Shown here: positions 39,422-45,790 of the stretch, piece by piece
Layout: every line of letters starts with the position of its first letter
How positions within the stretch are numbered: position 1 is the first letter of the stretch
The notes under the pieces: model-generated
Database searches by the model: none
The model's input: only the letters and a program-made list of their open reading frames with translations
Told to the model about the DNA's origin: nothing
Translations under genes and position numbers: made by a program
DNA from: an uncultured Paracoccaceae bacterium
Lineage (GTDB): Bacteria > Pseudomonadota > Alphaproteobacteria > Rhodobacterales > Rhodobacteraceae
Assembly (NCBI GenBank): GCA_947488175.1
Contig: CANKYO010000004.1
Location: forward strand, 434,001-498,000
Length of the DNA stretch: 64,000 nt
Reading direction: 5' to 3'

Positions 39422-39457
39422 CCCGCCGGTTTCAAACCCGGCGGGCCCTTTGTTTTT
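39422..39457 (+). terminator. Rho-independent terminator of thrS
   Basis: CCCGCCGG pairs with CCGGCGGG around an 8-base loop, then CCCTTTGTTTTT. It lies 28 bases after the thrS stop. Confidence 0.88.
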
Positions 39458-39627
39458 ATGACTATCGGTGGGCGACCGCCCGCCGCATCGCCTGTGCCCC
39501 TCACACGACCTCACGGAACCGCGATGCACGGGGCTGTGAATAGAAAACCGATCTGGCATAAGGTTACTGTCTGGTCAGCACCGGTATGCGGTGACTGCAT
39601 AACGAAATTCAACCGAAGGAAACCTCG

Positions 39628-39930
39628 ATGTCCAAAGCTTCAAAATCTCTCGTTCTGGCAAGCGCCGTTGCTACAGCGCTGACCGGTCTGGCCACCACGT
39701 CTGCCGCAGCGGGTGACGTGAAATGCTACGGCGTGTCGCTGGCTGGCGAAAACGACTGTGCAGCTGGCCCCGGCACCACATGTGCCGGCACATCGACCAT
39801 CGACTATCAGGGCAACGCCTGGACGCTTGTTCCCGAAGGCACCTGCGAAACAATGGACCTGCCAGCCATGGCAGACGGCACACCACGCGAGGGCTCGCTC
39901 GAAGAGCTTGATCGCGATCTGCCTGCATAA
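39628..39930 (+). CDS. bufA1: DUF2282 bufferin-type RiPP precursor (BufA1-like)
   Basis: A 100-residue secreted precursor. Signal peptide [20 protein letters not shown] then LATTSAAA, cleaved near residue 28. The mature part has exactly four cysteines at 33, 44, 52 and 73 in [18 protein letters not shown] and PEGTC, the DUF2282 pattern of bufferins, copper-chelating peptides whose central cysteines are converted by an MNIO enzyme to thiooxazole-type rings (published for Caulobacter). AAGGA precedes the ATG. It heads a four-gene operon. Copper binding and induction are inferred here. Confidence 0.9.
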
Positions 39931-39995
39931 ATCGATCATGATAGGGTAAGGTGGGGACCAACTCACTTTACCCTTTTACCAAACGGGGCCAGACG

Positions 39996-40850
39996 ATGCT
40001 TGATTCCGCGCGACTTTCATCCCTCCCGCCCCGTCCCGGCGCTGGCTACAAGCCCCAGCATTATAGCGACATCATGGCCGATCCGGACCCTGTCGGCTGG
40101 CTTGAAATCCACGCAGAGAATTACATGGGCGACGGCGGTCGCCCGATTGCGCAACTGCGTCACCTTGCTGAACGTTTCCCCATCTCGGTCCACGGTGTCG
40201 GCCTGTCCATCGGGGGCGAGGGCGATCTGGACCCAGAACATCTGGCCCGGCTCAAGCATCTGGTCGGCTGGCTGAACCCCGCCAGCTTTTCCGAACATCT
40301 GGCCTGGTCGACCCATGACGCACATTTCTTCAACGACCTTCTGCCCTTGCCGTACAACCCAGCAACACTCCACAGGGTCGCGTCCCATATCGATCAGGTA
40401 CAGGACGTGCTGGGTCGCCAAATGCTGCTGGAAAACCCGTCCAGCTACCTCGCCTTTGCCGACTCCACCATGTCAGAGACTGATTTCCTGCGCGAGCTTG
40501 TCACGCGCACTGGCTGTGGCCTGCTTTTGGACGTCAACAATGTCTTTGTCAGCGCAACCAACCTGAAAACGTCACCGAAAACCTATATCGATGACTTCCC
40601 GCTGGAAGCCGTTGGCGAAATCCACCTTGGTGGACATGATGAAGACGAAGACGAAACCGGCGCGCCGCTCCTGATCGACAGCCATGGCAAGGCGGTGGTT
40701 GATCCTGTCTGGGCGCTGCTGGATTACACACTTGCCAAGTCCGGCCCCAAACCGCTGTTGATCGAATGGGACAATGACGTACCGGCCTGGCCCGTTCTGG
40801 CAGATGAAACCCGCCGCGCCGGGCGCGCGCTCTCATTGGTGACAGCATGA
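39996..40850 (+). CDS. bufB1: DUF692 MNIO enzyme (BufB-like), multinuclear iron oxygenase
   Basis: Modifies the precursor cysteines. The 284-residue TIM-barrel protein starts at ATG 39996 and shows the MNIO metal and core motifs in order: LEIHAENYM (36-44), HGVGLSIG (66-73), SEHLAW (99-104), LEN (145-147), LLDVNN (177-182), IHLGGH (209-214) and IEWDND (256-261). These His, Asp, Glu and Asn residues are the expected iron ligands. It overlaps the next gene by ATGA. Oxidative thiooxazole formation is known for the family and inferred here. Confidence 0.92.
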
Positions 40851-41584
40851 CAGTCACGCAAGCCAATTTCACGGCTGCGATGTTGGACCCCAGCGCTGCC
40901 GTTCCCAAGGGGCTGCAAACGCCAAGCGGGGATATCGCCAGCAAACGCTTCAACGTCTACCGCAACAACGTCGCCGTCAGCCTGTCAGACGCGCTGGAAA
41001 CGGCTTTCCCGGTAATTCGTAGACTTGTCGGTGACACGTTTTTCCGCGCGATGGCGGGCGTTTATCTGCGCCAGCATCCGCCAACATCGCCGCTGATGAT
41101 GTTCTATGGTGAGGATATGCCAGCATTCCTTGCCGGGTTTGAACCGGCCAGATCGTTGCCCTATCTACCCGACATCGCCCGTATCGAATTGGGCCTGCGC
41201 CGCGCCTATCACGCAGCGGACGCCAGACCGGCGGATGGGCAGGTTCTTGGCGCGCTGGCACCTGACGCGCTGATGAACACCCGGCTGCGCATCGCGCCTG
41301 CCGTGCAAACACTCACCTCTGACTTCCCCATCTACAGCATCTACCGCGCCAATACTGCCGCCGATGCACCCAAACCCGTGATGCAGGCGGAGGCGGTGTT
41401 GATCACCCGTGCCGGGTTTGACCCCGATATTCACCTGATTAACGCCGCCGGTGCCACTTGTGTCACCGCGCTCGCCGACGGGCAGTCACTGGGCGTGGCC
41501 ATCGACACCGCTGGCGAAACGCTCAACCTTGCTGGCGTCCTGAACCTGCTGCTGTCCCAAGGCGCTGTGACCGATATTTACTGA
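40847..41584 (+). CDS. bufC1: DUF2063 partner protein (BufC-like)
   Basis: A 245-residue protein with the DUF2063 N-terminal helical domain, [20 protein letters not shown] and [20 protein letters not shown] (about 29-75), then a C-terminal domain (about 125-240) that in characterised MNIO systems supplies a RiPP-recognition function for the precursor. Overlaps bufB by ATGA, so 1:1 coupled translation with the enzyme. The old annotation putative DNA-binding protein is probably wrong. Confidence 0.9.
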
Positions 41585-41598
41585 AAGGCCTCTCCCCT

Positions 41599-42153
41599 AT
41601 GAATATGATCGTTTCCCCGCTTGAGCCTATGACCGAACCGATGAACCGCGCCGGTGATCAGGTCCTGCCCCTGTTGGCACGCCTCGTCTTTGCGGGGGTA
41701 CTGCTACAGTATTTCTGGAATTCGGGCCTGACCAAACTGGGAGCCGGGTTTTTCGGCTTTCTGACCCCGTCATCGGGGGCCTATGTCCAGATTTTCCCCA
41801 AAGCGATGGAGGCCGCGGGGTATGACACATCACAACTGGGCGTCTTTCACTGGGCCGTTGTGGTCGGCGGGACGGTGGCGGAATTCGTCCTGCCATTGCT
41901 GATCATTGTGGGTTTGCTGACGCGTTTGTCGGCGATCGGCATGATTGGCTTCATCATCGTCCAGTCGCTGACAGACCTCTATGGCCACGGCGGAATCGAA
42001 CACGAAGGCACACTTGGCGCATGGTTCGACCGGTTCTCTGACGCGCTGATCCTCGATCAGCGGGCATTCTGGGTGCTGTGCCTGCTGATCCTGGTGTTCA
42101 AGGGGCCAGGGCTGTTGTCGCTCGACCGGGCTATCTTCAAAAGTGCGCCTTAG
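41599..42153 (+). CDS. DoxX-family membrane protein of the bufferin operon
   Basis: A 184-residue protein with about four membrane helices and an N-terminal cytosolic tail, starting at ATG 41599, 14 bases after bufC. DoxX-family features: RLVFAGVLLQYFWNSGLTKL, GTVAEFVLPLLIIVGLLTRL and the acidic DLYGHGG loop. DoxX genes are common fourth members of bufferin operons, probably helping redox or membrane steps; function is unproven. Confidence 0.85.
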   Translation: MNMIVSPLEPMTEPMNRAGDQVLPLLARLVFAGVLLQYFWNSGLTKLGAGFFGFLTPSSGAYVQIFPKAMEAAGYDTSQLGVFHWAVVVGGTVAEFVLPLLIIVGLLTRLSAIGMIGFIIVQSLTDLYGHGGIEHEGTLGAWFDRFSDALILDQRAFWVLCLLILVFKGPGLLSLDRAIFKSAP

Positions 42154-42505
42154 GCTCATCCGGCTGACCGGCGGCAATCGCCAGCAGACCACCCAGACCA
42201 GCAAAGCCGATGGGGAACATCGTGGCGACATTGAATCCAAAGGCGGCATAGAAACAGGCCGCCGCCAGCACCATCAGGATACCGCCCCATAGCGCGCGGG
42301 CCTTTGCCATGGCCCCGCCTGCGATAGCCAAAAGCGGTGCCATAAAGCTGGCGAAACGGATGAAGCCGGGGTTTTCGAGCATGCCGAATAGCTCACCCAC
42401 TTCGGCATGCTGCTCCGAAAACTCTGCGTAACCATAGCCGAACAGGCCCACGAAAATCCCCATGACGCCCGCGATCAGGCCCAATGTCATTGCCGCATTG
42501 CGCAT
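42137..42505 (-). CDS. four-helix membrane protein of unknown function
   Basis: A 122-residue protein with four predicted helices (about 5-25, 48-66, 70-88 and 92-110) joined by short loops (SEQHAEVGELFGMLENPGF), ending in a charged tail QPDEPKAHF. It overlaps the convergent DoxX gene by 17 bases. Not recognised beyond being a small roseobacter-type integral membrane protein. Confidence 0.65.
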   Translation of the reverse strand: MRNAAMTLGLIAGVMGIFVGLFGYGYAEFSEQHAEVGELFGMLENPGFIRFASFMAPLLAIAGGAMAKARALWGGILMVLAAACFYAAFGFNVATMFPIGFAGLGGLLAIAAGQPDEPKAHF

Positions 42506-45010: not shown

Positions 45011-45790
45011 CTGCACATCAGGGCAGCGCCGGGTCCGAGGAGGGGGGGGCTGGACCGTCTCGGAAACCGTCCACTGGACAGTTTCAGGTCCAGACAGGCG
45101 GAGCCCAGGGGGCGCGGCCGTTATGCGCAATATAAGGGCAGCTTCCGGACCTCGGGGTGGGCGCGCCGTCATGTGTGCCCGGCGGGCCGGTCAATTCAGA
45201 TGCAGCGATTGTGCGGGATGTGATGTTGCAAAAGCGCCCTCTCCGTGGGGGAGAGTTTGAGCCGTCTCGGAATTGATCCAATGGATCAATTCAGGCGAAA
45301 ACGGGCGGAGCCCCGTCGAGGGCGCGGCTTTCGCGCAGCGGAGGCGTTTGATTGCTATGAAAGCCGTGGCCAGTGTCGCGCACAACAGCAGGGCATCGCC
45401 CGGACCTCGAGGTGGGCGCTCAAGCGGAACTGTTTGGCGGGGATTGGCGTTTATCGGTGACTGCGGTGCGGGGTGCGGCGTTGCAAAAGCGCCCTCCCAG
45501 CGGGGGAGGGTTTGAACTGTCTCGGAAATGATCCGGGGGATCATTTCAGGTTCAAACGGGCGGAGCCCCGTCGCGGGCGCGCTTTCGCGCAGCGGAAGCA
45601 TCAGATTGCCAAAAACCACGGTCATTGTCGCGCACAACAGCAGGGCAGCGCACGGACCTCGGGGTGGGCGCTGAAACGGGTCTGTTTGGCGGGGCTTGGC
45701 GTTTATGGGTGGCTGTTGCGCGGGGTGCGGCGTTGCAAAAGCGCCCTCCCCGTGGGGGAGGCCCGGGCGCTGCCCGGCGATGCCGGGCCT
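45011..45790. repeat. array of ~255-bp degenerate tandem repeats (about 3.5 copies)
   Basis: The word GTTGCAAAAGCGCCCT recurs at 45225, 45480 and 45732, and GTCTCGGAA-type blocks at 45057, 45264 and 45519 (spacings 207 and 255). Each unit has CGGACCTCGGGGTGGGCGC-like segments, a CGGGCGGAGCCCCGTCG block and its own inverted repeat (arms like GAATTGATCC). The frames across it are repeat-derived and I do not accept them as genes. Together with 44859-45010 it forms a 962-bp gene-free stretch. Confidence 0.7.

Follow-up and report, generated by a model that had tools for sequence, protein, structure and literature searches.

A complete chromosomal Buf1 bufferin operon of the captophorin class was found at positions 39628 to 42153 of the window, the whole 64,000-nucleotide stretch of DNA that was analyzed. 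Its likely role is that of a bufferin, and we assign this reading, apart from any model of how the operon is controlled, a probability of about 0.87. The operon gives a further, well-conserved example from marine bacteria of a copper-buffering RiPP already known from the literature, and its four genes are as follows.

39628..39930, plus strand: bufA, Buf1/DUF2282 bufferin precursor of 100 amino acids with four cysteines (PF10048, 84 bits)
39996..40850, plus strand: bufB, MNIO (DUF692) bufferin maturase of 284 amino acids (PF05114, 343 bits; NCBIfam MNIO_BufB, 371 bits)
40847..41584, plus strand: bufC, DUF2063 plus RRE-type MNIO partner (PME type 1) of 245 amino acids (PF09836, 94 bits)
41599..42153, plus strand: doxX, DoxX-family membrane protein of 184 amino acids (PF07681, 30.4 bits, cut-off of 23.6)

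The four families are co-oriented and stand in the order claimed in an earlier note on this DNA, and all four operon proteins score above the curated Pfam cut-offs (DUF2282, MbnB_TglH_ChrH, DUF2063, and DoxX). The individual assignments of that note were borne out as well: a DUF2282 precursor (cut-off of 22.4) with four cysteines (C33, C44, C52, and C73), a DUF692 MNIO enzyme with which solved MNIOs align, a DUF2063 partner with a predicted fold like that of MNIO partner proteins, and a DoxX gene. Compared with four related loci (L033, L035, L042, and L061), the operon genes have dN values of 0.07 to 0.46 and dS values of 0.94 to 2.3, and of the 16 pairwise gene comparisons, the 15 with a computable dS all had dN lower than dS. 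Together with the four scores above the Pfam cut-offs, this argues that the operon is not a chance pattern. The genome to which the window belongs (G000, contig C4) is 4.74 Mb in size and contains one DUF2282 match and one MNIO match. Among the matches listed, the closest named relatives of bufB are from Yoonia, Roseobacter sp. CCS2, Loktanella, and uncultured Rhodobacteraceae.

The description of the genes as partly overlapping holds for bufB and bufC, which share 4 bp, an overlap kept in 68 of the 73 loci whose alignment begins at the first codon of bufC; it does not hold for bufA and bufB, which are 65 nt apart, or for bufC and doxX, which are 14 nt apart. Two mechanically assigned starts were rejected. 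The TTG at 41458 would make doxX over-long, and the ATG at 41599 is likelier, being an ATG in 40 of the 40 loci aligning there. For bufB, the ATG at 39996 (ATG in 70/70 loci aligning from that codon) is likelier than the GTG at 39951, and in the sampled loci the gap lengths before this ATG are spread evenly over all three frames.

The four cysteines of BufA are invariant in all 94 near-full-length precursors (L052, truncated at a contig edge, was left out). Also largely invariant in these precursors are a stretch around the central cysteines and a C-terminal tail, GSL..L.RD.P; in many DUF2282 proteins at greater distance this tail differs or is reduced in length (24 of 29 rows were usable; L116, L124, L130, L139, and L140 were left out as wrong reading frames). 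Read from the sequence, the N terminus is a hydrophobic stretch with an Ala-rich segment at its end, both kept in relatives. The only NCBIfam match of BufA was to the BufA2 model at 19.7 bits, below the cut-off of 60; with this subthreshold score and four cysteines in place of the six or twelve conserved cysteines of a Buf2 bufferin, assignment to Buf2 was rejected. A search for sequence relatives of BufA in the PDB returned only titin chains at E values of 0.3 to 0.5, which were taken as chance matches.

BufB is the only operon protein above its NCBIfam cut-off (310 for MNIO_BufB); BufC reached 47 bits against the HvfC model (cut-off of 142), and DoxX reached 25 bits against the HvfX model (cut-off of 80). 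BufB residues E146, D179, H210, D228, H230, and E257, which we take to be metal ligands, align with the same residues in the solved MNIO structures 3bww, 8hci, and 7dz9, and all six positions are at least 98% conserved among 95 BufB sequences. For BufC, no sequence relative was found in the PDB at E values up to 0.1, and an AlphaFold model was built from an alignment of the window's protein with 34 of the 60 listed BufC references (mean pLDDT, 91.9). The only Foldseek matches of this model at an E value of 0.001 or lower were TglI in the TglHI holoenzyme (8hci_A and 8hi7_A) and NGO1945 (3dee), with TM-scores of 0.50 to 0.60 by query length. The predicted fold of BufC is like that of MNIO partner proteins.

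Loci with an MNIO match were gathered from 60 genomes, of which 39 had a match and 30 gave loci, and from a scan covering 84,980 species genomes, from which the best 80 loci (nearest relatives) were kept. Removal of identical bufB stretches left 96 loci, the window's included. The order bufA-bufB-bufC-doxX with all four genes was found in 93 of these 96 loci; the exceptions are L089, where the match begins 43 bases from a contig edge and bufA is missing, and the pair L029 and L030, in which no doxX was detected. bufA is present in 95 of the 96 loci. The earlier note had considered the operon likely to be new in this lineage, which overstates its novelty: the operon is common to the sampled relatives, and bufferins 1 (DUF2282) and 2 have been described as biosynthetic gene clusters with thousands of members (PMC12452194; this and the other publications cited were available in part). 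The gene set is of low novelty, a known Buf1 system commonly held by the sampled marine relatives. In a phylum-wide sample, DUF2282 was found in 63 of 299 genomes, and within the genus (G000 to G034) 7 of 35 genomes are without an MNIO match. In one genus locus (L032, from G025, a genome that is 84% complete), bufB is broken up, with stop codons inside the matched stretch, and bufA, bufC, and doxX remain; this may be decay or an assembly error.

Upstream, on the same strand and no more than 2.5 kb away, thrS is found in 76 of the 78 loci that have enough upstream sequence. Downstream, the operon meets a convergent reading frame.

42137..42505, minus strand: convergent ORF of 122 amino acids, overlapping the end of doxX by 17 bp

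This ORF has no match in Pfam or NCBIfam, and a relative of it is found downstream of doxX in 67 of 81 loci. With both flanks conserved, the place of the operon in the chromosome looks old and vertical, and recent horizontal acquisition was ruled against as the main story. MNIO relatives were also recorded in 356 plasmid records, 21 of them at 60 to 80% identity and the rest below 60%. Elsewhere in the window, at 45225 to 45761, a GC-rich 252-bp unit is repeated in tandem in about 2.1 copies (84% match), and a weaker copy of the unit lies upstream of the array, from 45105.

Homology suggests that the operon buffers copper. Bufferins have been described as thiooxazole-bearing peptides that sequester copper, in which the central cysteines are the targets of modification and the outer cysteines form a disulfide (PMC12452194); a 5-thiooxazole has been assigned and the class name captophorins proposed (PMC13097082). 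By analogy, BufA would carry a Sec signal peptide; BufB and BufC, acting in the cytoplasm, would oxidize the central cysteines C44 and C52 to 5-thiooxazoles; and, after export, a disulfide would join the outer cysteines C33 and C73, and the exported product would bind excess periplasmic copper, with DoxX as a putative accessory membrane protein. The homologous Caulobacter cluster is induced by copper (PMC8224329). That the modified peptide instead answers another stress (gold or silver, cadmium, chromate, oxidative, or sulfur), copper being one inducer only, seems improbable to us. The SigF regulon of Caulobacter is induced by chromate and cadmium too, its sigF mutant being impaired in stationary-phase oxidative stress resistance (PMC3511200, PMC8224329). 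A response to gold is known for the homologous GIG operons (PMC5413113), copper resistance in Cupriavidus is unaffected by the cluster (PMC8224329), and other metals have been suggested for bufferins (PMC12452194). Against this, the Caulobacter sigF mutant is copper sensitive, though its sensitivity profile to chromate and cadmium is similar (PMC8224329), and the role described for bufferins is copper sequestration (PMC12452194). Copper buffering is the reading that we carry forward.

The part of the operon for which no published description was found in the literature searched is its control region rather than its gene set. Three features lie between thrS and bufA.

39422..39445, plus strand: terminator-like hairpin after thrS, which would part the operon from the upstream gene (consensus scan)
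39511..39539, plus strand: 29-bp element, candidate operator, in the window composed of the tandem palindromes TCAC-N6-GCGA and CAC-N6-GTGA
39565..39570, plus strand: -10-like hexamer TACTGT at a fixed distance from the 29-bp element; a TTGACA-like -35 hexamer is absent

The consensus terminator scan of the region returned 3 hairpins against 2.3 expected in shuffled sequences, which is weak evidence when taken alone; a hairpin similar to that after thrS was seen in aligned relatives. When the 220 nt upstream of bufA were aligned for 37 Yoonia-type and near loci, a block of little variation was flanked by less conserved sequence. With up to two substitutions allowed, the 29-bp element was found in 75 of the 94 regions upstream of bufA, 31 of them exact and the window's among these, compared with 4 matches elsewhere in the same loci (1.71 Mb strand-bases). 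Its general form is TNAC-N6-GYGA followed by CAC-N6-GTGA. One base accounts for 88 to 100% of the 75 sites at 15 of the 29 positions and for 28 to 69% at the other 14, values that are inflated because the sites were chosen with the same pattern. A TANNNT hexamer begins 24 or 25 nt after the element in 67 of the 75 sites, compared with at most 6 sites at any other offset from 0 to 39; the promoter scan of the window region gave no sigma-70-type match at the -10-like hexamer. A conserved upstream reading frame starting from the ATG inside the element was also considered and rejected, the frame stopping early in L036 and L037 (alignment by eye).

Within the genus, a 33-base form of the element, searched with up to three mismatches, occurs once in 27 of 35 genomes and never in 8. 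By comparison of coordinates, 26 of the 27 copies sit 450 to 500 nt before bufB; the remaining copy, with three mismatches, is in G031, a genome without bufB. The 28 genus genomes with bufB have the element in 26 cases, and the other two (G015 and G028) are of the SigF type described below. Since it occurs once per genome, the element may be a private switch of the bufferin operon, and it offers a direct bait for a metal-responsive regulator. No regulator gene beside the operon was recognized by eye in the 25 recurring neighbor clusters listed, antisense shadow ORFs included.

A diverged form of the element with three to four substitutions was found in 11 of the 19 upstream regions that did not match at two substitutions (L061, L064, L067, L069, L070, L085, L088, L092, L094, L103, and L111). 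Six others contain GTAACN-N16-CGAA upstream of bufA (L071, L081, L102, L112, and L030, and L029 with CGAC in place of CGAA), a pattern that fits the published motif of the Caulobacter sigma factor SigF (PMC8224329, PMC3511200) and that has a chance rate of about 0.003 per 300 bases over whole loci. The upstream regions of L100 and L031 contain neither the element nor a SigF-type promoter, and L078 and L084 contain both motifs by pattern. The control regions of bufA thus appear to be of two kinds, the tandem-palindrome element and the SigF-type promoter. The anti-sigma factor NrsF was sought in 46 of the genomes behind the 96 loci, including 18 of the 19 without the element (L064 was left out), and was found in 8. 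It is present in 6 of 6 SigF-type genomes versus 2 of 40 others (Fisher P = 3e-6, a value that is too small because related genomes are not independent). NrsF lies approximately 0.7 to 0.9 kb before bufA in L071, L081, L102, and L112 and approximately 1.1 kb before bufB in G015 and G028; in the two remaining genomes, those of L088 and L094, its coordinates place it elsewhere than the operon. The first four of these loci also have thrS upstream, so that both types of control occur at one chromosomal place. Moreover, in five of the six SigF-type promoters (L071, L081, L102, L029, and L030) a CAC-N6-GTGA palindrome starts exactly 18 nt before GTAAC, a fixed distance that suggests that one regulator may act on both control types. 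The marks of SigF/NrsF control are absent from the window's operon: no NrsF was found in the window's genome, and the 300 nt upstream of bufA hold the element and not the SigF motif.

We propose that the tandem palindrome at 39511 to 39539 is bound by a putative regulator, which would fill the role that SigF/NrsF plays in Caulobacter and in a smaller part of the family; the absence of a good (TTGACA-like) -35 hexamer makes an activator the most likely kind. A repressor operator overlapping the -35 region, or the promoter of an unrecognized ECF sigma factor, is a possible second reading of the element, to which we give clearly less weight than to a coin toss. The end of the element falls directly at the -35 place, no DNA-binding protein is known for it, and the fixed spacing between element and hexamer would fit a repressor or an ECF promoter alike. 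Repressors usually sit on good promoters, which the lack of a TTGACA-like hexamer in the -35 region speaks against, and the -35 motifs of ECF sigma factors are shorter than this 29-bp double palindrome. Binding of an activator is the reading kept below. With the two promoter types compared, the question of what switches on bufferin operons that have no SigF/NrsF becomes open to testing.

A second candidate control feature lies within the operon.

39943..39974, plus strand: hairpin in the bufA-bufB gap (fold z score, -3.16)

The 65-nt gap together with the bufA stop codon folds at -22.5 kcal/mol, a stability equaled by 0 of 200 shuffled sequences. Gaps were usable in 94 loci (not in L032 and L089), and 92 were tested, L094 (Ns) and L100 (418 nt) being skipped: a stem reached by at most 1 of 100 shuffles was found in 77 of the 92, with z scores below -2 in 66, and L031 has no stem of that stability. 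The consensus terminator scan did not call this hairpin as a terminator. With gene boundaries from a crude ORF caller, stems of at least 10 Watson-Crick pairs occur in 18 of 24 recognized bufA-bufB gaps. The corresponding figures are 33 of 145 for other co-directional gaps, 15 of 58 for convergent gaps, and 2 of 75 for divergent gaps. When only gaps up to 110 nt long are counted, the figures are 18 of 23 for bufA-bufB and 9 of 68 for other co-directional gaps. In L100, the 418-nt gap appears to hold the beginning of another small signal-peptide ORF, which might be a precursor gene in tandem.

The sequence of the genus hairpin belongs to a dispersed palindromic repeat, GTARGGTGG..CCACCYTAC, of which 0 to 35 strict copies per genome were counted in the 35 genomes; at least one copy is present in 23 genus genomes and none in 12, and the genomes with the repeat include G002, G004, G006, G009, and G018. 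Selection for a hairpin at the bufA-bufB gap is thus not proven, and that the hairpin is merely a REP-like mobile palindrome, functionless for the operon, is an explanation that we treat as a substantial minority possibility. Besides the excess of stems in bufA-bufB gaps over shuffled sequences and over other co-directional gaps, it is opposed by lineages with other hairpin sequences, which retain a hairpin in the same gap, and by the window's genome, which has just two strict copies of the repeat, neither of them at bufA. If functional, the hairpin would favor precursor mRNA over enzyme mRNA.

These control steps, which we infer from conservation only, would amount, in most of the sampled Rhodobacteraceae, to a single-target metal-responsive regulator acting on a 29-bp tandem palindrome that reaches the -35 region, in place of SigF/NrsF, together with an intercistronic hairpin that sets the ratio of precursor to enzyme. 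Our confidence in this combined model is evenly balanced. No description of an operator or hairpin of bufferin operons was found in the literature searched; within the available portions of the texts, PMC12452194 has no mention of a promoter, operator, terminator, or Rhodobacter, PMC3511200 does not mention a hairpin, and PMC5413113 does not mention a hairpin, terminator, or stem-loop.

The bufferin 1 operon of Caulobacter vibrioides/crescentus, CCNA_03363-03366 (CC3254-CC3257), is like that of the window, with DUF2282, DUF692, DUF2063, and DoxX in the same order (PMC3511200, PMC8224329). It differs in the adjacent SigF and NrsF and in the promoter GTAACC-N16-CGAA, the window's genome being without NrsF and having another conserved promoter element. 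The GIG operons of Cupriavidus metallidurans and Legionella pneumophila are homologous four-gene metal-responsive operons that were studied as gold/copper-induced genes (PMC5413113). The Legionella copy is on an integrative conjugative element, in contrast to the conserved place after thrS of the window's operon and its sampled relatives.

Among the captophorins, oxazolin/HvfABC, fontiphorin, and gonophorin share with the window's system an MNIO with a DUF2063-type partner and, as predicted for the window's BufA, a Cys-modified precursor bearing 5-thiooxazole, and copper binding has been affirmed for fontiphorin (PMC13097082). Their precursors have repeated EGKCG-type motifs, whereas the BufA of the window has a DUF2282 domain with four cysteines. 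Methanobactin MbnABC is related through the MNIO family, and its acidic and histidine positions align with those of the window's BufB. It is described as having a leader without a Sec signal, another partner protein, an oxazolone/thioamide product, and a role in copper scavenging, not buffering (PMC12452194).
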